A stretch of DNA of 64,000 bases from Fibrobacter sp. UWB11 (GTDB lineage Bacteria > Fibrobacterota > Fibrobacteria > Fibrobacterales > Fibrobacteraceae), in NCBI RefSeq assembly GCF_900143015.1, contig NZ_FSRT01000001.1:1240001-1304000 (forward strand), written 5' to 3'. Position 1 is the stretch's first letter; each line of letters opens with the position of its first letter. Below the pieces are notes generated by a model. The model was not told the DNA's origin. It searched no databases and was given only the letters and a program-made list of their open reading frames with translations. Positions 1 through 48,567 of this stretch are shown here, piece by piece. The position numbers and the translations under genes were made by a program.

Positions 1-702
1 TTGACCAACCTCTTCAAGAAGCAGTTCCCGAGCGAAGACGCTTTCCAGAAAGAACTCAAGAAGTCTAACACGACGATGAAGCAGTTCAAGGAAAAGATTG
101 AAGACCAGCTCAAGAGCGAAGAAATCCTCGTTAAGAAGGTTCCGTACCCGAAGGATCCGACCGAAAAGGATCTCGAAGCATTCTGGCAACTCAACAAGTC
201 CAAGGTTGCTATCAACGATACGATTAGCGGAGCTCGCATCTTTATCTCTACCAAGGGTAAGAGCGCTCAGGAAATCAACGACGCTAAGGACATGTTGAAG
301 GGTCTTGCAGCACAGGTTCGCTCCAAGAAGGCAACATTTGCTCAGCTCGCTGCTATCTATAGCGATGACAAGGAAGCCAAGAAGACCGGTGGTATCATGA
401 ACAAGTTTATCGCCAAGTCCAAGGGCGCAAACTTCGCCAAGGCAGTCGGCAAGATCAAGGTTGGTGAAATTTCTGAAGTCATCACCGACAATGACGGCGT
501 TTCTATCTTCATGCTTACCGAAAAGAACGACGGTAAGTTCGAAAGCTACAGACACCAGATTGACTACATCCTCCGCGTGCAGGCTGAACAGGAACGCCAG
601 GCTAAGCTCAAGGCTTACCTCGACGAACTTGGCAAGACCTACAAGGTGCAGTACCTCGACAAGAAGTACGAACCGCCTCAGGCAATCGGCGCTGCTAAGT
701 AA
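1..702 (+). CDS. Parvulin-type peptidyl-prolyl isomerase / SurA-like periplasmic foldase, C-terminal part
   Basis: The 5' end lies outside the window, so the first codon seen (TTG) need not be the true start. The visible 233 residues are rich in Lys, Glu and Ala. Residues about 75-175 fit a parvulin (PpiC/rotamase) domain: an Ala-Arg-Ile-Phe-Ile strand, a helix with QEINDAKDMLKGL, then an FAQLAAIYSDDKEAKKTGG segment typical of the family, and GEISEVI with a following Phe-Met strand. Such proteins assist folding of outer-membrane and secreted proteins in the periplasm; a signal peptide would be upstream of the window. It could equally be a lipoprotein PrsA-like isomerase. Family call good, exact subclass open. 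Confidence 0.7.
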   Translation: MTNLFKKQFPSEDAFQKELKKSNTTMKQFKEKIEDQLKSEEILVKKVPYPKDPTEKDLEAFWQLNKSKVAINDTISGARIFISTKGKSAQEINDAKDMLKGLAAQVRSKKATFAQLAAIYSDDKEAKKTGGIMNKFIAKSKGANFAKAVGKIKVGEISEVITDNDGVSIFMLTEKNDGKFESYRHQIDYILRVQAEQERQAKLKAYLDELGKTYKVQYLDKKYEPPQAIGAAK

Positions 703-723
703 TAGCACGAATTGTTTGTACGT

Positions 724-816
724 GTCATTCTGAGCGAAGCGTAGCGAAGTCGAAGAATCCAGAGGCTTTTTGGATCCTTCGATTTCGAACCTACGGTTCA
801 GCACTCAGGATGACAT
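724..816. repeat. Dispersed palindromic repeat, two opposed copies
   Basis: A left arm beginning GTCATTCTGAGCGAAG and ending CGAAGAATCC is followed by an opposed copy, GGATCCTTCGATTTCG up to CTCAGGATGACAT. Together they can fold into a long hairpin behind the foldase gene. The same end sequences recur at many other sites in this window. Confidence 0.75.
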
Positions 817-849
817 TTCTTTTTTAATTAGCTGATATTAGAGGTTTAT

Positions 850-1960
850 ATGGCATTCAATACAACTCACACCGGGCTTATCGAATTGCGTGCACGCATT
901 GATAAACTCTGGGGGTATCTTTGACTTAGAAGCAAAGACCGAAGAACTCTACGTCCTTGAAAAGGATTCCAGCGACCCGAACCTGTGGAACGACCAGGAT
1001 AAGGCGCAAGCAATGATGAAAAAGATTGGGAACCTCAAGGGGCTTATTGACTCCTGGAAAGAAGTTTCCCAGACATGCGACGACCTCGCTGAACTTTACG
1101 AAATGAGCAAGGACGAGGAATCAGCCGACCTCACCGCGACACTTGAATCCGACATTGCAGACCTCAAGTCTAGAGTCGAAGCGATGGAATTCAAGAAGAT
1201 GTTGAATGGTCCGGACGATGCCTGCGCATGCCTCATGTCTATCCATCCGGGTGCTGGCGGCACGGAATCCCAGGACTGGGCCTTGATGCTTTTCCGCATG
1301 TACACGCATTTCTTTGAACGCGAAAACATGGACTTCAAGGTGGTGGATTTCCAGGAAGCAGAAGATGCAGGCCTCAAGAGTGCAACGATTGAAGTCACTT
1401 GCGAAAACGCATACGGATTACTTCGTTCTGAAATTGGTGTCCATCGCTTGGTGCGCATCAGCCCGTTCGATGCCAATGCTCGCCGCCATACAAGCTTTAC
1501 GGCCGTTTATCTGTACCCCGAACACGAAGACGTGGAATTCGACCTCGACATGTCCGAAGTGCGCGTGGACACGTACCGCAGTAGTGGTGCCGGTGGTCAG
1601 TACATCAACAAGACGGATTCCGCAGTGCGTATGACCCACTTGCCGACAGGCATCATGGCGAGCTGCCAGACGGAACGTAGCCAGATTCAGAACCGTGAAA
1701 CCTGCTATAAAATGCTCAAGACCATGGTCGCTGAACACTATCGCTTGGAAGAAGAAGCAAAGCGCGATGCACGCATGGCCGAGAAGAAGAAGGTTGAATG
1801 GGGTAGCCAGATCCGTAGCTACGTGTTGCAGCCGTACCAGATGGTAAAGGACTTGCGCACTGGCGTAGAAACATCGGATACCGCAGGCGTGCTCGATGGA
1901 AAAATCAAACCGTTCATCGACGCTTATCTGCTAAGCACAAGCGAGGCGAATAAGGGGTAA
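850..1960 (+). CDS. prfB: Peptide chain release factor 2, programmed +1 frameshift
   Basis: RF2 recognises UGA and UAA stop codons and triggers peptide release on the ribosome. Translation starts at the ATG at 850, reads 24 codons to CTT at 919-921 and meets an in-frame TGA at 922-924; slipping forward one base (CTT T GAC) joins the long downstream frame, giving 369 residues. The site is the classic RF2 autoregulatory one: a run of G (CTCTGGGGGTAT) acts as internal Shine-Dalgarno just before CTT TGA C. The product has the SPF tripeptide for stop recognition (RISPFDANARRH) and the GGQ peptidyl-hydrolysis motif at about residues 248-250 (SGAGGQYINKTDSAVR). High UGA-reading RF2 ends synthesis, low RF2 permits the shift, as known for the family. 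Confidence 0.96.
919..925 (+). promoter_or_regulatory. prfB: prfB +1 programmed frameshift site (CTT TGA C)
   Basis: CTT is followed by the in-frame stop TGA and then C, the most shift-prone stop context. The G-rich stretch at 911-915 lies a few bases upstream as in other bacterial prfB genes. The downstream frame from GAC (923) is open to the normal RF2 C-terminus. Confidence 0.95.
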
Positions 1961-1971
1961 CTCCTCGCATT

Positions 1972-2002
1972 CGTCATCCTGACCCTATAAGGGGAAATAT
2001 CC
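1972..2002. repeat. Dispersed repeat, short degenerate copy
   Basis: Begins CGTCATCCTGACCC and ends AAATATCC with a small internal hairpin (CCCTATAAGGGG). It resembles half of the dispersed family and sits just behind prfB. Confidence 0.5.
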
Positions 2003-2018
2003 AGTTAAATTGATTAAA

Positions 2019-2043
2019 GTGGCGGGCTTTGCCCGCCATTTTT
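2019..2043 (+). terminator. Rho-independent terminator of prfB
   Basis: GGCGGGC and GCCCGCC arms with a short TTT-type loop are followed by ATTTTT. It lies about 60 bases after the prfB stop. Confidence 0.75.
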
Positions 2044-2052
2044 GCAAGATTG

Positions 2053-2085
2053 TCATGCCCGCCACTGAGCGCGGTCATCATCCTT
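2053..2085. repeat. Dispersed palindromic repeat, degenerate copy
   Basis: GTCATGCCCGCCACTGAGCG followed by CGGTCATCATCC resembles the GTCATTCCCGC...GCGGGAATC subtype of the dispersed family, partly decayed. Confidence 0.5.
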
Positions 2086-2090
2086 GAAAT

Positions 2091-2125
2091 AAAAAAGAGA
2101 AGCTCTGTAGAGCTTCTCTTTTTTT
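2091..2125. terminator. Bidirectional terminator between prfB and pfp
   Basis: AGAGAAGCTC, loop TGTA, GAGCTTCTCT forms a perfect 10-bp stem with T7 after it on the plus strand and a run of A before it (T on the minus strand). It can end pfp transcripts on the minus strand and read-through from prfB. Confidence 0.88.
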
Positions 2126-2195
2126 GCGTTATGCAAATTGGCGCTCCCGGTGGTTCGGCTGGCTCACCAACCTTAGTCCGGGATGACAGCCTAAA

Positions 2196-3857
2196 TTACA
2201 TTGCACCGCGTTCGAGCTTGATCGTGAAGTTCGTGATGTCGCAAACTTCGCTCGGACCCCAGTACTGGATCGGACCCGGGTAGGTGTAGGATTCAGTCTT
2301 AGCCCATTCGTCGCGGCGAGCGGCGAAGTACTTGAACGGAGCGCTCATCGGGCCTTCGAGTTCAACGAGAGCCTTACGGATAACCGGCTTGTCGGCACCG
2401 TGACGGCGTTCGATGTTCATCATCATGGTGATCGGAAGGCCGCCAGCGACCCAGTTTTCGATACCCTTAGTGACGTTGCGGACAGAGCTCATGTAGCCGT
2501 TCATGCCATTGAGGGCGAGAACAGAGGCTGCAAAGCCGAGGCTGTAGCAGTAGTCAGCGTCGAAGTTGGACGGAGCTGCGCAACGGCCTTCGTAACCGAA
2601 GAAGTGGTTGAGAGCAGAGAACTTGCCCTTGAAGTCACCACGGTTCTTGAGTTCCTTCTTGACCATTTCGATGATGAGCTTTTCAGTTTCGATGAGGGAA
2701 ACCTGAACGTTGCCATGGCTGTCGCGTTCGAGCATGAGCTGGGCCTGGATGCCAGCCGGGAGGCTCTTGAGGACTTCAGCGGATTCAGCGCTGACCCATG
2801 CGCAGAGCTTTTCGACCTTAGCAGCCGTGTCGAGACCTTCGACTTCAGCTTCGTGGTGGGCGAGGGCTTCAGAAAGTTCAGAGATAAGGACGCCAACGTC
2901 CGGGATGAATTCGAGGAGGCCTTCCGGAATGAGGGCGACACCGAAGTTCTTGCCCTGAGCTGCACGAGCGTAAACAACGTCAGCAACCTGGTTGATCACG
3001 TCCTTGAGCTTCATCTGCTTTGCCTTGACTTCTTCAGAGATAAGGCAGATGTTCGGGTGGGTCTGGAGAGCGGCTTCGAGAGCGATATGGGAAGCAGAGC
3101 GGCCCATGAGCTTGATGAAGTGCCAGTACTTCTGAGCGGAGTTAGCATCGCGCATGATGTTGCCGATGAGTTCAGAGTAGGTCTTCACAGCGGTGTCGAA
3201 ACCGAAGGAGGTTTCGATGAATTCGTTCTTCAAGTCACCGTCGATGGTCTTCGGGCAACCGCAAACGCAAGTCTTGACGCCTTTGGACTGGAAGTATTCA
3301 CCGAGAACAGCAGCGTTCGTGTTGGAGTCGTCACCACCGATGATAACGATAGCGTCGAGGTCGAGCTTGTTAGCAACAGCGATGCACTTGTTGAACTGTT
3401 CTTCAGTTTCGAGCTTAGTACGGCCAGACTGGATCATGTCGAAGCCACCGGCGTTGCGGTAGGCGTCCATCTTGGCGTCGTCAATTTCAATGTACTTGCC
3501 GTTTTCGAGACCGCTCGGACCGCCGAGGAAACCGAAAAGGACGGAATCCTTGGAAACGGACTTGATGCCGTCGTAGATACCAGCGATAACGTTATGTCCA
3601 CCCGGAGCCTGGCCACCAGAGAGAACCACGCCCATACGGAGAGCCTTGCCAGCCTTGGCTTCGGCTGCTTCGAACTGAACAACCGGAAGACCGTAGGTGT
3701 TCGGGAAGAGTTCCTTGATCTTGGCCTGGTCGCTAACGGATTCGGTAGCTGCACCCTTGTTAATCTTCACGCTCAGGGCACCATTCTTGAGGGAGACCGG
3801 GAGCTTCGGCTGATAGGCCTGACGGGCCTTGGTCAGTACAGAGAGATTTTCGGACAT
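2196..3857 (-). CDS. pfp: Pyrophosphate-dependent 6-phosphofructokinase
   Basis: Converts fructose 6-phosphate and PPi to fructose 1,6-bisphosphate reversibly, so glycolysis can save ATP. The 553-residue length fits the long PFP class related to the plant beta subunit. Visible motifs: MGVVLSGGQAPGGHN at residues 76-89 (phosphate binding), GGDDS at 174-178 (Asp in the position that disfavours ATP), PKTIDGD at 202-208 (catalytic loop), MGRSASH for substrate binding. The start ATG at 3857 is preceded on its strand by AAGGAATA. The long open frame on the opposite strand is codon-bias shadow. Single gene with a terminator behind it and no close partner. Confidence 0.95.
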   Translation of the reverse strand: MSENLSVLTKARQAYQPKLPVSLKNGALSVKINKGAATESVSDQAKIKELFPNTYGLPVVQFEAAEAKAGKALRMGVVLSGGQAPGGHNVIAGIYDGIKSVSKDSVLFGFLGGPSGLENGKYIEIDDAKMDAYRNAGGFDMIQSGRTKLETEEQFNKCIAVANKLDLDAIVIIGGDDSNTNAAVLGEYFQSKGVKTCVCGCPKTIDGDLKNEFIETSFGFDTAVKTYSELIGNIMRDANSAQKYWHFIKLMGRSASHIALEAALQTHPNICLISEEVKAKQMKLKDVINQVADVVYARAAQGKNFGVALIPEGLLEFIPDVGVLISELSEALAHHEAEVEGLDTAAKVEKLCAWVSAESAEVLKSLPAGIQAQLMLERDSHGNVQVSLIETEKLIIEMVKKELKNRGDFKGKFSALNHFFGYEGRCAAPSNFDADYCYSLGFAASVLALNGMNGYMSSVRNVTKGIENWVAGGLPITMMMNIERRHGADKPVIRKALVELEGPMSAPFKYFAARRDEWAKTESYTYPGPIQYWGPSEVCDITNFTIKLERGAM

Positions 3858-3877
3858 TGTTTATTCCTTTTGTTAAT

Positions 3878-3898
3878 CCCGCAAAAAAGCGGGTTTTT
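3878..3898 (+). terminator. Small hairpin with T-run in the pfp leader region
   Basis: CCCGC, loop A6, GCGGG, then TTTTT on the plus strand. No plus-strand gene ends here; on the minus strand it is a 5' leader hairpin just upstream of the pfp start and could affect pfp expression. Confidence 0.4.
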
Positions 3899-3964
3899 GG
3901 TTAAAATCCGGCGTAAATATAGAAAATTAGACGAGAGGCTTGTGGCAAAAAACTAAAGAAAACA

Positions 3965-4007
3965 CGTCATTCTGAGCGGAGCCCACATGGGCGGAGTCGA
4001 AGAATCC
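3965..4007. repeat. Dispersed palindromic repeat
   Basis: CGTCATTCTGAGCGGAG at one end and GGAGTCGAAGAATCC at the other, with an inner GCCCACATGGGC palindrome. Same family as the copies at 724 and 19001. The rest of the 3858-4173 gap is AT-rich with no recognised gene. Confidence 0.75.
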
Positions 4008-4173
4008 AAAGAAATTCCTTTACAAAATGTGATAAAAGTCAAATTTCTGTATATTTTTTTTAACTCTTTATTCCAAATTAGAGTAAATTTTACTATATAT
4101 GCGTCGCGTAACAAAAAAGTAATAACCAATTACTATTCTTGTTACAAAATAAATAAAATAAGAAGGTGAGTGT

Positions 4174-4587
4174 ATGAATGTTTTAATTTGGGGATCAGAT
4201 ACCATTTTGGGTCATGGGCTGTTGTCCACGCTAAAGGATATCAAAGATGGAGTTTTCAACGCCATCGGAAATATCGAAATTGGGGAAATTTTTGCATGCG
4301 ACGCCGAATCTGACAAGGAAGTCATCGACGAGGCTTGCGCCAACGCGGACTTCGTATTCAATTTATCCTATGGATTTAAATCTGACAAGCTCATTGAAGG
4401 TTTGAACGTTCATAACAATACTTGCCCGGTGCTCTTGAGCCATTCCGTAGGAGACAAAAGTCTTTTCCGCGAATACGCGCAAAACAACAACGTACCTATT
4501 CTTGAGTGGGCACCGAATTACGACATGGAACTTTTGAGTATCGAAGCTCAGGTCTATGACATGCTCGGCGCACTGCAATGCGCATAA
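4174..4587 (+). CDS. Hypothetical protein with Rossmann-like N-terminus
   Basis: A 137-residue protein starting MNVLIWGSDTILGHG, which resembles the first strand and glycine loop of NAD-dependent epimerase or dehydrogenase folds (G7, G13, G15). A second strand (DFVFNLSYGF) and an Asn/Ser-rich mid part follow, but the protein is less than half the length of a sugar epimerase and lacks a clear YxxxK catalytic pair. It may be a stand-alone reduced Rossmann protein. The RBS AAGAAGGTGAG lies before the ATG. Single gene between pfp and ogt; upstream DNA is very AT-rich. No function assigned. Confidence 0.65.
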   Translation: MNVLIWGSDTILGHGLLSTLKDIKDGVFNAIGNIEIGEIFACDAESDKEVIDEACANADFVFNLSYGFKSDKLIEGLNVHNNTCPVLLSHSVGDKSLFREYAQNNNVPILEWAPNYDMELLSIEAQVYDMLGALQCA

Positions 4588-4612
4588 ATTAGACGAAAGA
4601 ATTTATAAAGAT

Positions 4613-4638
4613 GGCGGCCTTTGAGCCGCCTATTTTGT
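4613..4638. terminator. Terminator between the Rossmann-like gene and ogt
   Basis: GGCGGC, loop CTTTGA, GCCGCC, then TATTTTGTT. It lies between convergent genes and could serve both. Confidence 0.7.
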
Positions 4639-5198
4639 TATTCCAGCATTAGCTCATTTGGTAAGGCACCCTCCATGCAGAGGAGCCTTCTTTTTAGGCC
4701 GACGCCAAGCGCATAACCGCTCAGACGACCGCGACTATCAATCACGCGGTGGCAGGGGATGACGACTTGAATCAGATTATTGTGCAGAACATTTCCGACA
4801 GCGCGAACTGCTCGTGGATGATTTACGGCTTGTGCAACTTGTTTGTAAGTCCAAGTTTTGCCGTAAGGAATTTGTCGTGTGACCTCAAGAACTTTTTTCT
4901 GGAAGTCGGTGCCGTAGATTTTTATGGGTATAGAAAACTCGCAGATCTTGCCTGCGAGGTACAAATTAAGTTCGTTCACGGCTTTGCGGTAGGCGCTACG
5001 AACGCGGTTGCTTATTTGCAACTCCGAATCAGGGCCTGCATACGCACATGCCTGCACGTTGCTCGGAGTTGCTTTTACTTCGTCTGAATTTTCCCGAAAT
5101 TTTAGGCCACAAAGATTTGATCCTTCAAAGACAAAGGTCCATTCGCCCCAGACGTTCCGGTGGCTTATCTTTGTGAATTTCGGGTCATCAAACTTCAT
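4638..5198 (-). CDS. ogt: Methylated-DNA--[protein]-cysteine S-methyltransferase
   Basis: Suicide repair enzyme that takes alkyl groups from O6-alkylguanine onto its own cysteine. With the start chosen here it has 186 residues; PCHRV at 148-152 carries the acceptor Cys149, preceded by the helix-turn-helix RAVRAVGNVLHNN that reads the DNA minor groove. The open frame extends upstream to 5276 inside alr, but the ATG at 5198 starts 17 bases after the alr stop and has AGGAGA overlapping that stop, so the shorter form is preferred. It probably shares a transcript with alr. Confidence 0.9.
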   Translation of the reverse strand: MKFDDPKFTKISHRNVWGEWTFVFEGSNLCGLKFRENSDEVKATPSNVQACAYAGPDSELQISNRVRSAYRKAVNELNLYLAGKICEFSIPIKIYGTDFQKKVLEVTRQIPYGKTWTYKQVAQAVNHPRAVRAVGNVLHNNLIQVVIPCHRVIDSRGRLSGYALGVGLKRRLLCMEGALPNELMLE

Positions 5199-5215
5199 AC
5201 CATGCGGTATTTCTC

Positions 5216-6439
5216 CTAGCGCAAGGGGTATTCCTTGTATTCTTGTACACCGAATTCTTCCTTGAGGTAATCCCAACGTACAAGGCGGTTCTTCCAGTAG
5301 TACTTGCGGTACAAGCGACGAGCCACACGGCTTGTTAGTTCGTACGGAATCGTGTGATGCTCATCGGCAACGCATTCCATCGAGATGCGGAAGTCAAGTT
5401 CACCATTGACAACATCAACAGTTTCACCAACTTGCACATCAGGAATGTGGCTTACGTCGACCATCGTCGCATCCATGCAAACGCGTCCGAGAATCGGGCA
5501 GAGCTGTCCGCGGATAAAGACGAATCCCTTGTTGTATTCGCCACGGAGGTAACCGTCGCCGTAACCGATTGCGATGGTCGCAATGCGTGTAAGCTGTTGG
5601 GCAGCCCAGTAACCACCGTAGCTCACCGTTTCGCCAGGCTTCACGTCGTGCACGTGGCGGATGGTAGATTTAATCTTCATGACAGGCTTGATGGGCCATG
5701 GGGAAGGAGCTGCACCCATGCAGTTGTAGCCATAAAGCGCTAGGCCCGGACGAACCATGTCGAAGTGGCTTTCGGGGTGCGTGAGCGTGCCTGCAGAACT
5801 GGAGCAATGGCAAATTTCCGGGCGAAGTCCTTCTGCTTCAAGAACGTCAACAAGGCGAGAGAATCGCTGGATTTGCACTTCGGTCTTGGGATTCCCCGGC
5901 ATGTCAGCCGTAGCAAGATGCGTGAACATTCCCTCGAACTTGAGGTGCTTGAGAGAAAGCGCCGCGCGGATGTTATTAAAGTCTTCGGCATCAAAACCGT
6001 AACGGTTCATGCCCGTGTCAATGGCGAGATGAGCCTTGCAGGTCGTTCCCGTTTCGCCAAGGAACTGGTCGAAAGCCATTGCAGTGCGGATGTCGGTAAT
6101 AGCAGCCGTGAGCTGGAATTCGACAAAGTAAGCAAAGTCTGCAGGAGTGCATGGGCCAAGTACGAGAATCGGCAAGTCCATGCCGTACTGGCGGAGTAGC
6201 ATGCCTTCGCTGATGTGGGCTACACCAAGGTAGTCGGCACCGCCGAATTTAGCGGCAAAAGAGCAGGCGAGGCTTCCGTGGCCATAAGAGTCGGCCTTGA
6301 CAGGTAGTAAAATCTTAGTCGAAGCCGGAATTTGGCTTCTGATAAACTTGATATTTTCACAAAGGGCGTCTAAATTGATCTCAATCCAGTTCGGGCGCGC
6401 GATTTTATTTAAGTCAGGAGGATTAGATAAAAGTTTCAT
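5216..6439 (-). CDS. alr: Alanine racemase (PLP-dependent)
   Basis: Interconverts L- and D-alanine for peptidoglycan synthesis in the cytoplasm. The 407-residue protein has the PLP-lysine motif VKADSYGHG (Lys48) close to the usual KANAYGHG, a VSYGGYW segment that carries the second catalytic tyrosine, and ATIAIGYGDGYLR, all typical of the fold III TIM-barrel and C-terminal beta domain. The first about 13 residues precede the conserved RPNWIEINLDAL start and may be an extension. No strong RBS is visible before the ATG. ogt follows 17 bases downstream on the same strand. Confidence 0.94.
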   Translation of the reverse strand: MKLLSNPPDLNKIARPNWIEINLDALCENIKFIRSQIPASTKILLPVKADSYGHGSLACSFAAKFGGADYLGVAHISEGMLLRQYGMDLPILVLGPCTPADFAYFVEFQLTAAITDIRTAMAFDQFLGETGTTCKAHLAIDTGMNRYGFDAEDFNNIRAALSLKHLKFEGMFTHLATADMPGNPKTEVQIQRFSRLVDVLEAEGLRPEICHCSSSAGTLTHPESHFDMVRPGLALYGYNCMGAAPSPWPIKPVMKIKSTIRHVHDVKPGETVSYGGYWAAQQLTRIATIAIGYGDGYLRGEYNKGFVFIRGQLCPILGRVCMDATMVDVSHIPDVQVGETVDVVNGELDFRISMECVADEHHTIPYELTSRVARRLYRKYYWKNRLVRWDYLKEEFGVQEYKEYPLR

Positions 6440-7015
6440 GGTAACAATAATATAGTCAAGTTTTAAGAAAATGGCTGAAGCACCCCTTAAAAAAGGCCAT
6501 ACTCAATCCAAATTGGAATAAATTATACTGGGCTAAGTTTTGTAAAAAACAAAGCGTGTGAAAAAAATCAAAATCGCGTGCAAGCCCAATAACCACGCGC
6601 AAAGCCTTATTTTATCTGAGTTTACAATTCATCGTATGAAATTTTCTTTACTATTTTACGCTGTTTTCTTGAATTTTTTATTGGTACTTTATGGGTGTGA
6701 TAAGGGTTTGGGTTGTTTCTTACTTTTAATCAATTAAAATAAAGTAAGTGGTTTTATACAAAGTAATTTCCCTTATTTTGTGACACCGACTATTCTGACA
6801 TTGATGTACAACAACGTGATAAATGCGCAATAAAGTTGCGTATTGAAAACACGTAAGCGTTTCGCGTAACAGTTCGATTAAAGGGCTTGCCTTAAAAGTC
6901 CTGTTACGAAATGTTGCCATTCGGCAAATTAAATGCTCCGCTCACGGGGTAGTTGCTTTGCTGATACCAAAAAAACATAAACATCCAATTTCCTTGAGAA
7001 AGGGAGGATAAAATC
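6440..7015. other. AT-rich intergenic region, 576 bases
   Basis: Divergent promoter space between alr and the TonB-like gene. I see one possible short lipoprotein frame (6636-6737), an interrupted inverted repeat CGTAACAG (6864-6871) / CTGTTACG (6901-6908), and the strong RBS GGGAGGATAAAATC before 7016. No RNA gene was recognised. Confidence 0.5.
6636..6737 (+). CDS. Possible 33-residue lipoprotein-like peptide or gene relic
   Basis: ATG at 6636 opens a frame reading MKFSLLFYAVFLNFLLVLYG then C, D, K: a basic start, hydrophobic core and a lipobox-like LYGC. After the Cys only 12 residues follow (ending LLLIN). It could be a very small lipoprotein, the left-over start of a lost lipoprotein gene, or chance in AT-rich DNA. 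No clear RBS is seen. Confidence 0.22.
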   Translation: MKFSLLFYAVFLNFLLVLYGCDKGLGCFLLLIN

Positions 7016-7984
7016 ATGAAAACGACAAATAAAAAACAAGACGCGTTCATCGCATCCTTGATGCCAGATTCCGACAAGAAGATGGTGCGCATTGCAAGTG
7101 CATCGCTGATTGTCGCGTTAGCTCTTGGCTTTTGGGCAACTACGTATGAACGTATAATCGATGACGTTATCTTTGATACGACACCGAGAGTAGATATGGA
7201 CGTATCCGTGAAACTCAATCCAATTAAGGAGGAAAAAAAGCAGGAACCAAAACCAAAGACACAAACAAATCGCAGATCTAAAGATGATTCCAATAAAAAA
7301 ATGGGAAAGAAAGAAGATGCTGGAGGCGGGAAGCCCAAAGGTCCGGGAGATCCCAAGGCCGCATTGAATCGAGGAGTCCTTAAGGAACTTGCTATACGAA
7401 CGAATAAAGCAGGCCTCCAGGCCTATGATTTGATGAATCAAAAGTTCGCTAGCGATGTCAACAAGGTACTTACTCATGTAAACGTCTTGATGAAATCTGG
7501 AACAACAAGGATAGGCAATCGACGTGGCACAGTGAACACCGAATTTAACCCCGGCATTGCCGCAGGTGGATCTGGTGGAATCAAAGATGGTCTCGGAGGT
7601 CTTTTCAGCGGATCTGGAACCCGTTTTGCACCATCCGGTTTAAAAGGCAATATTACTACGCCTAAACCAAACCAAATCGACATGGGTGCTGGTGGCGGAT
7701 CTCGCTCGGCATCCGATATCATGAAAGTCGTGCGTCAGCGTACTCCTGGACTTCGCCATATTTACAATAAGCACTTGAAGAAGAAACCAGGATTCCAAGG
7801 CAAGGTCACATTGAAGTTCACGATTGCACCGGGTGGCGAAATCATCAGCATGGCTGTGGTGGGGTCAACGACGGGATATCCTGAATTCGATAATGAAGTC
7901 AAAAAAGCCGTGAGTGGTTGGACGTTCGGCAAGGTTAAATCGGGAAATACAACAGTGACGATTCCATTTACCTTTACGGAGTAA
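7016..7984 (+). CDS. TonB-family energy transducer, AgmX/PglI C-terminal type
   Basis: A 322-residue inner-membrane-anchored protein. One membrane segment at about residues 22-42 (MVRIASASLIVALALGFWA) follows a short cytoplasmic start; then comes a Lys/Glu/Pro-rich periplasmic spacer (EEKKQEPKPKTQ), a Gly-rich stretch, and a C-terminal domain from about residue 230 with RQRTPGLRHIYNKHLKKKPG and GKVTLKFTIAPGGEI, typical of the AgmX/PglI and TonB C-terminal families. Such proteins couple inner-membrane motors to outer-membrane or gliding machinery; no ExbB/ExbD partner lies next to it. A strong RBS (GGGAGGATAAAATC) and a terminator hairpin bracket it as a single gene. Confidence 0.8.
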   Translation: MKTTNKKQDAFIASLMPDSDKKMVRIASASLIVALALGFWATTYERIIDDVIFDTTPRVDMDVSVKLNPIKEEKKQEPKPKTQTNRRSKDDSNKKMGKKEDAGGGKPKGPGDPKAALNRGVLKELAIRTNKAGLQAYDLMNQKFASDVNKVLTHVNVLMKSGTTRIGNRRGTVNTEFNPGIAAGGSGGIKDGLGGLFSGSGTRFAPSGLKGNITTPKPNQIDMGAGGGSRSASDIMKVVRQRTPGLRHIYNKHLKKKPGFQGKVTLKFTIAPGGEIISMAVVGSTTGYPEFDNEVKKAVSGWTFGKVKSGNTTVTIPFTFTE

Positions 7985-8031
7985 TGAAATGGTTATTGGA
8001 GTAGAATAAAGACGAATAGATTTTTAAATTT

Positions 8032-8065
8032 AAGTCGGTGATTCCTGTCACCGACTTTCGGTGAT
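8032..8065 (+). terminator. Hairpin behind the TonB-like gene
   Basis: AAGTCGGTGA, loop TTCCTG, TCACCGACTT is a perfect 10-bp stem; the following bases are only partly T-rich (TCGGTGATTTT), so it is a weak intrinsic terminator or mRNA-end hairpin. Confidence 0.6.
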
Positions 8066-8086
8066 TTTAATTTATGGGAAAAAATT

Positions 8087-9202
8087 ATGAAAGATCCTCG
8101 CATTACGCAACTTGCAGAAAACTTAATCAACAACGCCATTGCACTTAAGGCTGGCGAAAACATTCTAATCGAAACGACCGACACACCGGACGAACTTTCG
8201 ACCGAACTTATCAAGGCTGTCGCTAAGGTTGGCGGCAATGCTTTTGTCCACAACTATAACAGCCGCGTACGTCGTGAAGTCATCCGCTCGGCTTCCGAAG
8301 AACAGATGAAACTTTCTGCCGAGCTTGCAATGAACGAAATGAAGCAGATGCAGGCTTATCTTTCTATCCGCGCAATGAACAACGCAATGGAAAATTGCGA
8401 TATCGATGACAAGAAAATGTTCGCTTACAGAACCATCACGCAAGATGTTTTGAACTACCGCGTGAACAATACGCGTTGGTGCGTACTCCGCTGGCCGAAC
8501 CCATCAATGGCGCAGGGCGCAAAGATGAGCACGGAAGCTTTCGAAGACTTTTACTTCAAAGCTTGCCTTGCGGATTATCCGAAGATGCAGCGCGCCGCAC
8601 AAGCTTTAGTAGACCTCATGAACAAAACGGACAAGGTACGTCTTGTGGCTCAAGATACCGACATCACATTCAGCATCAAGGATATCCCGGCAGTACCATG
8701 CTGCGGCAACATGAATATCCCGGATGGCGAAGTCTACACGGCACCGGTGCAGGGGAGTATCGAAGGCGTTATCCACTACAACACGCCGACACTTTACGAA
8801 GGCAAGCACTTCAGCAACATCCGCCTCGTCTTCAAGCAAGGCAAGATTGTCGAAGCCACCTGCGAAACGGGCGACAACAAGAGCCTGAACGCCATCTTCG
8901 ATACAGACGAGGGAGCTCGTTACGTGGGCGAGTTTGCTATTGGTTTTAATCCGTTTGTGCGCGCTCCGATGTGCGACATTTTGTTCGACGAAAAGATTGC
9001 AGGCTCCATCCACTTTACTCCGGGAATGAGCTACGAAGATGCCCCGAACGGAAACAAGTCTGCCATCCATTGGGATTTGGTACTTATCATGCGTCCGGAA
9101 TACGGCGGTGGCGAAATTTGGTTCGACGACAAGCTCATCCGCAAGGACGGACTTTTTGTGGTCGATGAACTTAAGTGCTTGAATCCGGAGAATTTAGGTT
9201 AA
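8087..9202 (+). CDS. M29 family metallo-aminopeptidase (AmpS/PepS-like)
   Basis: Cytoplasmic two-metal aminopeptidase removing N-terminal residues from peptides. The 371-residue length is usual. Family marks: N-terminal helical domain with LKAGENILIET, NIPDGEVYTAPV (metal-ligand region), VGEFAIGFNP, and NKSAIHWDLVLIMRPEYGG near the C-terminus with the His and Asp ligands. The start ATG has a GGGAAAAAATT leader with weak RBS. It stands alone between the TonB-like gene and an outer-membrane protein gene. Confidence 0.87.
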   Translation: MKDPRITQLAENLINNAIALKAGENILIETTDTPDELSTELIKAVAKVGGNAFVHNYNSRVRREVIRSASEEQMKLSAELAMNEMKQMQAYLSIRAMNNAMENCDIDDKKMFAYRTITQDVLNYRVNNTRWCVLRWPNPSMAQGAKMSTEAFEDFYFKACLADYPKMQRAAQALVDLMNKTDKVRLVAQDTDITFSIKDIPAVPCCGNMNIPDGEVYTAPVQGSIEGVIHYNTPTLYEGKHFSNIRLVFKQGKIVEATCETGDNKSLNAIFDTDEGARYVGEFAIGFNPFVRAPMCDILFDEKIAGSIHFTPGMSYEDAPNGNKSAIHWDLVLIMRPEYGGGEIWFDDKLIRKDGLFVVDELKCLNPENLG

Positions 9203-9210
9203 GTCGTATA

Positions 9211-9248
9211 TGTGTGATTAAAAAGATTAATTATATTTTTGTCACACA
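9211..9248. promoter_or_regulatory. Inverted repeat before the outer-membrane protein gene
   Basis: TGTGTGA and TCACACA arms are 24 bases apart and enclose an AT-rich stretch (TTATATTTTTG) that could hold a -10 element. It may be an operator; no regulator is known. Confidence 0.3.
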
Positions 9249-9278
9249 ATTCAAAAAATCTTATTACAAGGAAAGACT

Positions 9279-10517
9279 ATGAATTTTAAAACGATGTTTG
9301 GCATTGGTCTAGTCGGCTTCGGTCTCGCCTTTGCTCAAGACGGATCTTTCGATTCTACACCTGCAGCTCAGTCCATGAGCGAACAGCAGCTCCAGCAACA
9401 GGAAGAACAGGCAGCCGCTTCTGAAAGCCTGACAGCTCCAGTACCGTTTGTCGCTCCGGAAATTCCGAAGGAATCCAAGCGTTCTTCTTTTAACGCTATT
9501 CTGCACGGCAAGTCCTACAACAGAAACAGCAACATGGCTGCCGCAAACAACACGGACTTGTTGCTCAAGTACCCGAACTTGTTTGCCAACCGCAAGTTCT
9601 TCTACATTGAACCGACCAACAAGCTCGGCATTGTTTCTCTCGGTTCTTTCTTCACAGCTTTCGATATTTCTAAAGCTCCGTATGATGACACCCAGTTGGG
9701 CCGCCTCACACTCGGTTATGCCGTTCCGGGCTTTGGTTTCTATATCAGAGCCGGCCTTGGCCGTGAAAGAGTCAGCAATGATGCCGGTGTTGTCAGCAAG
9801 ACCTATGGTGGTGATGACTGGGCTGCAGCAATTGCCAAGAGCTTCTTGGGCATGAACGTTGCCGCTGATGTCGACTGGCTCACAACAAAGACTCAGACCC
9901 ATGCTGACCCGGATCTCGGTGCAGAAACAGAAGACCGTTTTGACAGTCTCACGATTAACTTGAGTTTGACAAACGCTCCGACAGCAAAGAACTTCACCTG
10001 GACACTTGGTGCAAGATTTGTCAGCTTCAACAACGAAACAGAAGTTGATGGCGAAGTCCAGAAACCGGGTGATCCGGCATCTTACTGGGACATCGCTCCG
10101 TACATCCGCGGTGGTCTTTCTGTTCTTGAAAACGAAAATGCCCGCGTCCTCATTGGCGCAGCTGCAATCGTTTCTTACAGAAACTACGATGATCCGCTGG
10201 AACTCTACACCCTTACCGCTGTTCTCCAGCCGAGCATGCTTGGTGAAGTGTTCGTAGGCGAAGAAAAGAACTTAATGTTCTACGGTGAAGTCGGTTATGA
10301 CTGGGTTGCATTCCAGTACATGAAGAACACCGATACGGACACGAACCGCATGATGGACGTGATGGATGCAGTTAACGCTTCTATCGGTTTCCGTTATCAG
10401 TACAAGGATTTCCTTGCTGTTGAAATGGGCCTTGGTCAAAAGCTCTTCACGGGCATTGGCAACTTCTTCCAGGCCGATGGCACGTTCATCGACTTCAGCG
10501 CAATGGTCCGCTTCTAA
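9279..10517 (+). CDS. Putative outer-membrane beta-barrel protein
   Basis: A 412-residue exported protein with signal peptide MNFKTMFGIGLVGFGLAFA cleaved before QDGSF. A Gln/Glu-rich segment (residues about 30-50) precedes repeated amphipathic strands such as FYIRAGLGRERVSN, LTINLSLTNAP, FTWTLGARFVSFNNE and AVEMGLGQKLFTG; the protein ends in aromatic-terminated MVRF, the usual signature of an outer-membrane barrel (C-terminal Phe). No specific family was recognised. Good RBS (AAGGAAAG). A terminator follows, so it is monocistronic. Confidence 0.72.
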   Translation: MNFKTMFGIGLVGFGLAFAQDGSFDSTPAAQSMSEQQLQQQEEQAAASESLTAPVPFVAPEIPKESKRSSFNAILHGKSYNRNSNMAAANNTDLLLKYPNLFANRKFFYIEPTNKLGIVSLGSFFTAFDISKAPYDDTQLGRLTLGYAVPGFGFYIRAGLGRERVSNDAGVVSKTYGGDDWAAAIAKSFLGMNVAADVDWLTTKTQTHADPDLGAETEDRFDSLTINLSLTNAPTAKNFTWTLGARFVSFNNETEVDGEVQKPGDPASYWDIAPYIRGGLSVLENENARVLIGAAAIVSYRNYDDPLELYTLTAVLQPSMLGEVFVGEEKNLMFYGEVGYDWVAFQYMKNTDTDTNRMMDVMDAVNASIGFRYQYKDFLAVEMGLGQKLFTGIGNFFQADGTFIDFSAMVRF

Positions 10518-10528
10518 TTGCTAGGATT

Positions 10529-10553
10529 GTCATTCCCGCCTTGAGCGGGAATC
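10529..10553. repeat. Dispersed palindromic repeat, GTCATTCCCGC subtype
   Basis: GTCATTCCCGCC, TTGA, GCGGGAATC forms a compact hairpin. Almost the same sequence is translated inside the second FISUMP gene at 24596-24622. Confidence 0.8.
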
Positions 10554-10573
10554 TCCACATAATTAAAACAAAG

Positions 10574-10606
10574 ACGCCTCCCGAATGGGTGGCGTTATTT
10601 TTTTTG
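10574..10606 (+). terminator. Terminator of the outer-membrane protein gene
   Basis: ACGCC-TCCC, GAA, TGGG-TGGCGT (one mismatch) followed by TATTTTTTTT. Confidence 0.78.
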
Positions 10607-10723
10607 TTTAGAAATAACTGGATGGGGCAAGCCCCAACCTCTTTGGCTCGGTTATATCCATGCAAGCATGGCTGCAACTCTCGCCTTCTGAGGTTGTCTT
10701 CACATTGCTTTTGATGATAATGC

Positions 10724-10758
10724 AAAAAAAGAGTCTAGCGGAAGCTAGACTCTTTTTT
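10724..10758. terminator. Bidirectional terminator behind asd
   Basis: AGAGTCTAGC, GGAA, GCTAGACTCT is a perfect 10-bp stem with a T-run on both strands. It ends the minus-strand asd transcript. Confidence 0.88.
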
Positions 10759-10796
10759 AAAGCGAGCCCCAGCCTTTGGCTGGTGTGCAATCGCAA

Positions 10797-11786
10797 TTAG
10801 AGGCGTTCTGCAATCTGGACAGCGTTGAGAGCAGCACCCTTGCGGATCTGGTCGCCAACAATCCAGATGTTCATGCCATTATCGCAAGCGAGGTCCTTGC
10901 GGATACGGCCAACGTAAACGTCGTCCGTGCCCATGAGGTTGAGCGGCATCGGGTAGACATTGTTTGCAACGTCATCGCAGAGCTGGAGGCCTTCGCCGTT
11001 CTTGATGGCGTTGCGGACTTCTTCGACAGAGAGTGCGCGTTCCGTTTCGAAGCTGATGGCTTCGGAATGGCAGCGGAGTGCGGAAACGCGGACGCAGGTT
11101 GCAGCGCAGCGGACGTCGCTGTGCATGATCTTGCGCGTTTCGTTGAACATCTTCATTTCTTCCTTCGTGTAGCCGTTGTCGGTGAACACGTCGATGTGCG
11201 GAATGAGGTTGTATGCGAGCTGGTGGGCGAACTTCTTCACGGTGACCGGCTTGCCTTCGACGATTTCCTGGTACTGCTGCTTGAGTTCGGCCATACCCGT
11301 TGCACCGGCACCGCTTGCGCTCTGGTAGGTAGCGACGTGGATGCGGGTAATCTTGCTCAAGTCATTGATTGGCTTCAAAGCGACAACCATCATGATGGTC
11401 GTGCAGTTCGGGTTAGCGATGATGCCCTTGTGGAGCTTGATGTCTTCCGGGTTCACTTCCGGGACAACGAGCGGGACGTTCGGGTCCATGCGGAAGAAGC
11501 TTGTGTTGTCGACGACGACAGCGCCTGCGTCAACAGCAATCGGAGCGAATTCCTTGGAAACGCTTGCGCCTGCAGAAGAGAGCACGAGGTCAACGTTCTT
11601 GAATGCGTCCTTGCAAGTCAATTCGACTTTGAGCTTTTCGCCCTTGAATTCATATTCACGGCCGACGCTGCGTTCGGAGGCGAGAAGCTTCAAGTTCTGA
11701 AGCGGAAAGTTACGTTGTTCAAGAATCTTGAGGAGTTCCTGACCTACTGCGCCAGTGGCGCCCATGATCGCTACGTTACGAATCAT
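10797..11786 (-). CDS. asd: Aspartate-semialdehyde dehydrogenase
   Basis: Reduces L-aspartyl-4-phosphate to the semialdehyde with NADPH, the branch point to lysine, diaminopimelate, threonine and methionine. The 329-residue protein has the nucleotide loop GATGAVG at 9-15, catalytic Cys128 in IANPNCTTI, and SASGAGATGMAEL shortly after, as in the bacterial enzyme. The overlapping plus-strand frame is a shadow. Its start lies 20 bases beyond the stop of the membrane protein gene upstream on the same strand, so the two (with ssb) may be cotranscribed. Confidence 0.95.
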   Translation of the reverse strand: MIRNVAIMGATGAVGQELLKILEQRNFPLQNLKLLASERSVGREYEFKGEKLKVELTCKDAFKNVDLVLSSAGASVSKEFAPIAVDAGAVVVDNTSFFRMDPNVPLVVPEVNPEDIKLHKGIIANPNCTTIMMVVALKPINDLSKITRIHVATYQSASGAGATGMAELKQQYQEIVEGKPVTVKKFAHQLAYNLIPHIDVFTDNGYTKEEMKMFNETRKIMHSDVRCAATCVRVSALRCHSEAISFETERALSVEEVRNAIKNGEGLQLCDDVANNVYPMPLNLMGTDDVYVGRIRKDLACDNGMNIWIVGDQIRKGAALNAVQIAERL

Positions 11787-46547: not shown

Positions 46548-48206
46548 ATGAAATTGCAAAGACAAATTGCAAAAAATCGTGTAGTACTAGCTTTGCCAGT
46601 TGCACTGCTAATGGCAGCAAATGCGTGGAGTGCAAAGCAGGATACCGACTATATTGATGAAAATGGTTCGTCAAAAATAGCATCAAACTGTTTACTGCTA
46701 GATCAAAAGTACCTCAACGATCACCAAAATCAAATTAACACTCAATCTGAGTGCATTGCGGTTAATGAAGAATTGACCTATACAGGGAACTTTCATCTTA
46801 CCGCAAGTAATGTGATATTCATTATTGAAGATGAGGCTAAATTCACTATTAATTTCAACAGCCAAAGTGACGATAATCATCCTATTGGAGTGGGGAGTAA
46901 AACGAGAAGTGGCAATATTAAATTCTTCGGGCAGAAAAACCAAACAGGTTCATTGATTCTAAACAACACAGGTACTCAATATGGTAGAGGTTTGAGTGCA
47001 TATGGTGACATTCAAATCTACGGTGGCCATATTACTGTAACATCCAGCGGTAAAGATGCAATCTGGGCCCAAAACAATATTGAAATTTATGGTGGCTACG
47101 TTTCTACAACTTGTACAAGCACAAGCACGAAACCCGTATACGTTGGTATAAAATCCGAAACCAGAAACATCAATATCAAATGGGCCAACAGCTTCTATGC
47201 AAATTCCGACTCTACCACTCATGGGGCCCTGAATATCGCCGAAGGACTTATACTTAAGGACGAGAGTAACGGGACCTATTCTAACAGCACCGCAGATATC
47301 AATAATGCCATTAAAGGCAAAACACTCACTCCCGATTACTTTGTGCAAATCGTAACAAATGGTGACAACACCAAACGAGCAATCATCAACGGCAATTACT
47401 CAGGTACAACAACCAATATACCTCAGGGAACCGAAGTCGTGTCTATCGACTACAATCGTACATTTACAGCAGGAGTCCCATCAACTGTCGTATTGCCATT
47501 CAGCCTACCATCAGGTTCATCCGTCAACGCGAAGTTCTATTACTTACAAGAAGTTGTTCAAAAGAGTGATGCTTGTGCATGGAAGGCAACGCTTAAAAAC
47601 ATCGGCGCAGGCAATCTTCCACAAGCAAACACACCCTATGCAGTCTTGACTGAAGAAGGCAAGCTGCAATTCAATTTGAATGGTGGAAAAGCAACTTTCC
47701 AAGCACCTAATGATCTAACAACATCAGTTTCAGAAGGTAAATGGAGCTTTATCGGAGTTTATTCCTACAAGGTATGGGAACCTGGTGATACAGAACTTGG
47801 CTTGGCTTACGCTTTTGCGGGTAGTAACGAAGCTCAAATTGCAAAAGGTAAATTCGGAAAAATTGCGATTGCCGCCGATGCAGCAACAACAGGTTATCCT
47901 TCCGCAAATCCCTTCCGCGCTTACCTCAGAAAAAAGGATAACACCGTAAAGCTCCAATGCCCACAACCACAGGCTGTATTAGGCCAAAATTCAGCCCAAT
48001 ATAGCATAAGCAACATCCCCGAAACAATTGACGCTGAGTTTGTCGATGAAACCGAAAATGGCGAAAAAACAACGTTCATGGCACGCATGAACACCCGCAC
48101 GGGAGAATTCACTATGTTGCCGAACTACGACATCAAGGGTCGTAAGGTAAACGCATCTTCAAAGGTTCGTGGCGCCTATTACGGCAAAAAGGTCATTAAG
48201 CAATAG
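46548..48206 (+). CDS. Secreted protein with beta-helix-like repeats and C-terminal module
   Basis: A 552-residue exported protein. Signal peptide MKLQRQIAKNRVVLALPVAL with cleavage after WSA; residues about 75-230 carry short repeated strands (GNIKFFGQKNQTG, GDIQIYGGHITVTSSGKDAI, NNIEIYGGYVSTT) like a right-handed beta-helix carbohydrate-binding domain. A second part holds ITV- and PFSLPSG-type strands. The C-terminus, FTMLPNYDIKGRKVN then RGAYYGKKVIKQ, has the short YDxxGRxV...GxYxxKVIK pattern of C-terminal sorting or anchoring domains. Good RBS (AAAGGAAGAAGGG). Two 50-residue peptide genes follow directly. Confidence 0.72.
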   Translation: MKLQRQIAKNRVVLALPVALLMAANAWSAKQDTDYIDENGSSKIASNCLLLDQKYLNDHQNQINTQSECIAVNEELTYTGNFHLTASNVIFIIEDEAKFTINFNSQSDDNHPIGVGSKTRSGNIKFFGQKNQTGSLILNNTGTQYGRGLSAYGDIQIYGGHITVTSSGKDAIWAQNNIEIYGGYVSTTCTSTSTKPVYVGIKSETRNINIKWANSFYANSDSTTHGALNIAEGLILKDESNGTYSNSTADINNAIKGKTLTPDYFVQIVTNGDNTKRAIINGNYSGTTTNIPQGTEVVSIDYNRTFTAGVPSTVVLPFSLPSGSSVNAKFYYLQEVVQKSDACAWKATLKNIGAGNLPQANTPYAVLTEEGKLQFNLNGGKATFQAPNDLTTSVSEGKWSFIGVYSYKVWEPGDTELGLAYAFAGSNEAQIAKGKFGKIAIAADAATTGYPSANPFRAYLRKKDNTVKLQCPQPQAVLGQNSAQYSISNIPETIDAEFVDETENGEKTTFMARMNTRTGEFTMLPNYDIKGRKVNASSKVRGAYYGKKVIKQ

Positions 48207-48217
48207 GGGAGTGTGCA

Positions 48218-48370
48218 ATGAATAACACTATCGAACAAAAAACAAGCTATATTAAACCTCAGATGACCGTGCTAGAATTTAAGCAAGAAGCACCCCTGCT
48301 GGATGGTTCCTGTATTATAGACTGCAATTCCTGTAACGATGATGATATTGAAGCCGTACTTGAAGATTAA
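48218..48370 (+). CDS. 50-residue Cys-containing peptide, tandem gene 1
   Basis: ATG 48218 with GGGGAG RBS opens a frame reading MNNTIEQKTSYIKPQMTVLE on to EAPLLDGSC, then an acidic Cys-rich tail (Cys at 32, 36, 39; DDDIEAVLED). The core Y-I-K-P-x-M-x-V-L-E...LL-x-x-S is shared with the next frame (Y-A-P-P-x-L-x-I-V-E...LL-x-x-S). It starts 11 bases after the secreted-protein gene, implying one transcript. It could be a small secreted or modified peptide, or a precursor peptide; no maturation enzyme lies nearby. Confidence 0.6.
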   Translation: MNNTIEQKTSYIKPQMTVLEFKQEAPLLDGSCIIDCNSCNDDDIEAVLED

Positions 48371-48512
48371 AAAAAATTATGCACCTCCAAGTTTGAAGAT
48401 TGTCGAATTAGAGCGACAGTCAAACTTACTGCAAGATAGCAACTATGACTCAACTCCTGAAATTCATCATGGAATAGGAATGGTTCCATTCGAAAAAGCT
48501 CATCACGGATAA
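48360..48512 (+). CDS. 50-residue peptide, tandem gene 2
   Basis: A +1 frame overlapping the previous stop, starting at TTG 48360 (TTGAAGATTAA), reads (M)KIKKNYAPPSLKIVELERQS on to NLLQDS and ends HHGIGMVPFEKAHHG. The same length and core pattern as gene 1 support a real duplicated pair. The TTG start inside the gene 1 end suggests translational coupling; an ATT start at 48366 is an alternative. His-rich tail instead of Cys. Function unknown. Confidence 0.5.
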   Translation: MKIKKNYAPPSLKIVELERQSNLLQDSNYDSTPEIHHGIGMVPFEKAHHG

Positions 48513-48531: not shown

Positions 48532-48567
48532 AAAAACAGGACGAACAAAATGTTCGCCCTGTTTTTT
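48532..48567. terminator. Bidirectional terminator between the peptide genes and GH8
   Basis: AAACAGGACGAACA, AAA, TGTTCGCCCTGTTT (one mismatch), T-run on both sides. Confidence 0.85.

Follow-up and report, generated by a model that had tools for sequence, protein, structure and literature searches.

The window, that is, the whole stretch of 64,000 nucleotides of Fibrobacter sp. UWB11 DNA that was analysed, contains an operon on the plus strand in which two very small genes follow a gene for a secreted protein. This partner protein (46548..48206, plus strand) comprises 552 aa, has a signal-peptide-like N-terminal stretch and ends in MLPNYDIKGRKVNASSKVRGAYYGKKVIKQ, a C-terminus of the DLKGR...GAYYGKK type as found ahead of most peptides of the family described below. 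An 11-nt spacer (48207..48217, plus strand) with a GGGAG stretch, a putative RBS, leads to pep1 (48218..48370, plus strand), which starts at ATG and encodes 50 aa consisting of the leader-like MNNTIEQKTSYIKPQMTVLEFKQEAPLLDGS and the variable tail CIIDCNSCNDDDIEAVLED. The second gene, pep2 (48360..48512, plus strand), starts at TTG, overlaps the 3' end of pep1 by 11 nt and likewise encodes 50 aa, with the leader-like MKIKKNYAPPSLKIVELERQSNLLQDS and the tail NYDSTPEIHHGIGMVPFEKAHHG; the coordinates of both confirm the originally predicted pair of overlapping 50-residue ORFs behind a secreted protein. The operon of partner, pep1 and pep2 ends at an intrinsic terminator (48537..48567, core 48542-48556, plus strand) formed by the stem CAGGACGAAC/GTTCGCCCTG and a T run. 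Homologues of the partner protein are present in 22 of 80 Fibrobacter genomes, and it has no Pfam or NCBIfam match (NCBIfam searched to E 1). In a test for T9SS type A cargo, the TIGR04183 C-terminal domain, which has 58 matches in the window genome, was not matched by the partner protein, and an identity as T9SS cargo via TIGR04183 was rejected on this basis.

The two peptides belong to a large family. A profile built from eight paralogues identified 11 members in the window genome and further members in 22 of 24 additional Fibrobacter genomes; among 16 genomes outside the genus there was one marginal match (E 0.09). With a second profile, built from 70 rows, members were found in 74 of 80 Fibrobacter genomes. 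The family-profile E-values are 7e-22 for pep1 and 1.4e-16 for pep2, and neither peptide matched any Pfam or NCBIfam model, so that the original prediction of an undescribed small-peptide family held. Scanning contigs with a tight alignment gave matches in Fibrobacter only, and tblastn of one peptide against plasmids and phages gave none because the query is too short and divergent. A search of one open-access library of papers returned no description of the family or of the gene set discussed below, although such a description may exist; a RiPP survey of anaerobes that covers one Fibrobacteres genome lists no RiPP there (PMC4289311).

In the window genome, each member adjoins a large secreted protein, YDLKGRRVNGVRKARGAYYGKRK being an example of the C-termini of these proteins. 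We gathered 143 distinct ORFs, including 35 tandem pairs, and by a simple regular expression 82 of the 108 single or first peptides lie at most 110 nt behind a CTD-like gene; several of the remainder are CTD-preceded by eye, and some others lie at contig ends. The genome search proposed with the original prediction, for the pattern beside secreted proteins with C-terminal modules, found nearly all members right behind such a protein and the linkage constant, the partner types including Cthe_2159-type, beta-helix and List_Bact_rpt surface proteins. In one genome (L086; G009:C7 ~1-9700), secreted protein, pep1 and pep2 are duplicated as one unit in which the pep1 copies are identical and the pep2 tails differ (SSDGYHGTVGYND vs SSSDGYYHGGISYNG), as if tails diversify following duplication.

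To assess whether the ORFs are genuine, the locus was compared with a related one in genome G086, whose partner protein is 66% identical. Frames broken in other strains had been named as grounds for dismissing the genes; in this relative both frames are intact, all gaps being multiples of three, the HGIGM tail of pep2 is retained and a matching hairpin lies 3' of pep2. The dN/dS between the window genome and G086 is ~0.26 for pep1, ~0.63 for pep2 and ~0.42 for both combined. The ORF list offers an alternative ATG start for pep2 at 48339 (57 aa). In G086, TTG is the sole possible start, as the upstream codons are CAT, TCA and GAG followed by TAG, and the product has 50 aa; this supports the choice of the TTG inside the end of pep1, as first proposed. 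The equal length of the peptides, which had been taken as an argument for real genes, turned out to be a coincidence of pep1 and pep2, since family members mostly have 39-57 aa and the G086 peptides have 45 and 50 aa. Chance ORFs or decaying gene ends could be invoked for frames this short and overlapping, and nothing else points that way; the 11 paralogues, the genus-wide conservation, the purifying selection, the preserved frames and TTG start, and the strict family motif having 0 matches in 3.84 Mb of sequence simulated with matching composition leave this explanation with practically no probability. On sequence grounds it is refuted, and pep1 and pep2 are confirmed as real genes under purifying selection.

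The 143 ORFs were aligned on the Tyr, and Tyr and Pro are therefore constant by construction. Relative to this Tyr, Lys is found at -3 in 139 and at -2 in 133 of the 143 ORFs, M/V/I/L at Y+5 in 142, Leu at Y+16 in 134 and at Y+17 in 127, and Ser at Y+20 in 131. The fixed part of the family is KKxYxxPxM...LLxxS, and the shared Y-x-x-P core noticed in the window peptides is genuine and family-wide in the form KKxYxxPxM..V(V/I)...LLxxS. Beyond Y+20 the sequence is variable and acidic, with entropy high in the tail and low at the fixed positions. Because positions are fixed up to Y+20 and the tail varies, the peptides have a leader-plus-core layout, which at the sequence level agrees with one criterion for a RiPP, a ribosomally made precursor whose leader is conserved and whose core varies. 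Most likely, the shared core is a leader that PqqD recognises and the divergent tails give rise to the product. Of the proposed contrast between a Cys/Asp-rich and a His-rich tail, the His part stood, with His in the tails of 14 second vs 4 first peptides of the 35 tandem pairs (Fisher p = 0.013); the Cys part did not, the difference between first and second peptides of these pairs being not significant.

A PqqD protein of ~90 aa is encoded in 72 of 80 Fibrobacter genomes. It scores above the Pfam cut-off, and the best PDB relative of its profile is the lasso B1 protein TfuB1 (6jx3, E 3e-6); the best NCBIfam relative is lasso_PqqD_Bac (E 9e-5, below cut-off). The PqqD operon further encodes an ABC exporter, an S26-type peptidase and an HPr-kinase-like P-loop protein; many genomes add to these an NTP_transf_5 gene, one or two peptide genes and the gene of a CTD protein. 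Assignment of the kinase and of the S26 protein is based on weak family scores combined with conserved catalytic motifs, namely an invariant GxSM and a conserved His in the S26 protein and GxSGTGKST in the kinase; PDB profile searches with both proteins gave no informative match. In a comparison of the listed places, at least 22 genomes have a peptide gene no further than 4 kb from that of the kinase. At L112:7363-8721 (G021:C55, minus strand), kinase and S26 peptidase are fused in one ORF, which suggests that the two act together. The window genome has its PqqD set on another contig, unlinked to the window (L104; G000:C3 ~219350-222607), and, unlike in many relatives, neither a peptide nor an NTP_transf_5 gene lies alongside in the 19 kb read. 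Two further observations concern individual sets. In an otherwise complete genome the kinase gene is in two frames (G045:C2:368306-369161), which may reflect a genuine frameshift or a fault in the assembly. In genome G019 (L114:3041-6206; G019:C31), a radical-SAM-like gene comes after three small proteins that resemble one another (MKIEKKKV..SS..); this stretch lies ~2 kb from the PqqD set and may be another peptide-modification locus.

Across the 40 good genomes (completeness of 90% or more, contamination no higher than 5%), each of the three components, peptides, PqqD and kinase, occurs in 37, and the same three genomes (G001, G014, G064) are without all of them. The Fisher p-value of this co-absence is 1e-4 before allowing for ancestry, and the three may be kin. 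The association of peptides and PqqD is weaker but holds for all 80 genomes (p = 6e-4), and most exceptions are incomplete drafts: peptides occur without PqqD in drafts G018, G048, G063 and G081, and PqqD without peptides in drafts G061 and G065. Operon linkage, kinase-peptidase fusion and co-occurrence thus provide what is asked of a RiPP system as to dedicated enzymes linked to the precursor. The same linkage and co-occurrence with a PqqD/S26/HPr-kinase-like/ABC set favour the early suggestion that the peptides are possibly exported or modified, and both steps appear as predicted ones in the pathway below.

Outside Fibrobacter, the S26 and kinase proteins served as tblastn queries and pointed to one record from Prevotella and to plasmids of Phocaeicola massiliensis and Butyrivibrio fibrisolvens. 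The Phocaeicola run comprises a peptide, a large secreted protein, PqqD, NTP_transf_5, ABC, kinase and S26 genes. The Prevotella record has kinase, S26 and PqqD together, and peptides such as ...KKQQYLAPTIAVFDIVENNYLLAASP... elsewhere. In Butyrivibrio, a 57-aa MKKAYVKPEL... peptide lies between the kinase and PqqD-S24/S26 genes, with no adjoining CTD-type surface protein. The Butyrivibrio plasmid, pNP243, also carries asparagine-synthase-like and nucleotidyltransferase genes ~10 kb from the peptide run (L148:1-1621, 9731-11754), possibly a lasso cluster beside the kinase-peptide-PqqD-S24/S26 system on one plasmid. Similar small ORFs also occur in gut Bacteroidales and Clostridia, of which the analysis covered the Prevotella, Phocaeicola and Butyrivibrio cases.

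Our preferred reading, which we consider probable, is that pep1 and pep2 are RiPP-like precursors processed in trans by the single PqqD/kinase/S26/ABC set. A genome has about ten such precursors at scattered sites, every one encoded together with a large secreted protein; they would present the common leader KKxYxxPxMxVV, and one stand-alone PqqD would bind it as lasso B1 binds YxxPxL. The YxxPx(M/V/I/L) of the family has the same spacing as the B1 motif and matches it in sequence; in that motif Tyr(-17), Pro(-14) and Leu(-12) are reported to be required for B1 recognition (PMC10368454). When Y, P and L of BsfA were changed to Ala, phosphorylation persisted and cleavage was impaired by the triple change only (PMC10368454), and the YxxPx motif is therefore evidence for recognition and not proof of dependence. 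The peptide presented by PqqD would be acted on by the HPr-kinase-like enzyme, for which the Ser at Tyr+20 is the proposed phosphorylation target, although this conserved Ser could equally mark the cleavage site. With the aid of B1, BsfK, a relative of the kinase, phosphorylates a lasso precursor at Ser3 (PMC10368454). Where present, the NTP_transf_5 enzyme would also act on the presented peptide; the S26-type peptidase would cut off the leader near LLxxS, and the ABC protein would export the tail. Candidate roles for the product next to the surface proteins with which it is co-expressed are those of a signal, a ligand or an antagonist. In a rumen genus that degrades cellulose, a family of tiny genes covered by no Pfam or NCBIfam model would in this way gain an assignable pathway with peptide products tied to surface proteins.

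Two other functions were weighed against this pathway. The peptides might be small cytoplasmic accessory proteins, chaperones or targeting factors, for the CTD-bearing partner, with an incidental link to PqqD; the 82 peptides close behind a CTD-like gene and the nearly constant gene order agree with this. It is nevertheless unlikely, given that the Butyrivibrio peptide has no such surface protein next to it, that peptides, PqqD and kinase are lost jointly in the good genomes, and that the window genome has dozens of TIGR04183-type proteins for its 11 peptides. We find it quite improbable that the genes encode two-peptide bacteriocins or like antagonists, each pair killing competitors, an idea that is itself compatible with RiPP-like processing. 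The 35 tandem pairs, the variable tails, the exporter and the His-richer second tails would fit such a function, but the tails, acidic and rich in Asp, Glu and Pro, do not resemble cationic bacteriocins, the pairs are co-encoded with surface proteins and no immunity gene was seen. RiPP-like precursors processed in trans remain the reading we favour, and we propose more tentatively, as a possibility somewhat short of an even chance, that they constitute a distinct RiPP class: one PqqD/S26-peptidase/kinase/nucleotidyltransferase/ABC set serving in trans many dispersed precursors, each tied to a surface protein, and yielding linear phospho- or phosphoglyco-peptides, in Fibrobacterota, Bacteroidota and Bacillota.

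Several known systems share parts of this arrangement. Double-glycine/C39 systems likewise pair an ABC exporter with a short leader that ends at a small-residue site, but the Fibrobacter exporter consists of ABC_membrane and ABC_tran without a C39 domain. C39 scored above cut-off in one of 31 Fibrobacter genomes (G003:C7:23194-23523; L098), and C39 double-glycine export was rejected given this exporter and the weak matches in the genus. The HPr-rel-A system (TIGR04352, TIGR04355) has an HprK-like kinase and includes a PqqD partner; the Fibrobacter kinase reaches 20 and 17 bits against these two models, with cut-offs of 200. The SynChlorMet system is a small peptide cassette, and among NCBIfam models its HprK-like ScmC (TIGR04249) matches the Fibrobacter kinase best (21 bits, cut-off 125), but the shared Fibrobacter gene set is without a radical SAM enzyme.

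The closest parallels are with the phospho-lasso pathway (paeninodin, pseudomycoidin, Bradymonas bsfA/B1/K/N/D), where homologues of HPr kinase add phosphate to the precursors and glycosylation has been linked to a nucleotidyltransferase (PMC8498205). Both have a YxxPx(L/M) leader, a PqqD RRE, an HPr-kinase-like enzyme, a nucleotidyltransferase and an ABC exporter, and this match of leader motif, stand-alone PqqD, exporter, kinase and nucleotidyltransferase to phospho-lasso clusters (PMC8498205, PMC10368454), together with the asparagine-synthase-like gene of the Butyrivibrio plasmid, is what would favour ordinary lasso peptides with a cyclase and a leader peptidase encoded at other loci. However, the transglutaminase-like B2 leader peptidase (PF13471) is above cut-off in none of 31 Fibrobacter genomes, an S26-type peptidase occupies its place, and no asparagine-synthase-like lasso cyclase is among the neighbours read in clusters L104-L115; we consider ordinary lasso peptides very unlikely. 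Furthermore, the Fibrobacter precursors are many and dispersed, each beside a surface-protein gene. Because B2 is not above cut-off in the 31 genomes and no cyclase was seen in the clusters read, membership among the lasso peptides was rejected and the system was filed as RiPP-like and PqqD-guided. The Fibrobacter set points to a lasso-like module of leader, PqqD and kinase from which the lasso-forming enzymes were lost, or in which they were never present, and which would use a signal-peptidase-like protease instead.
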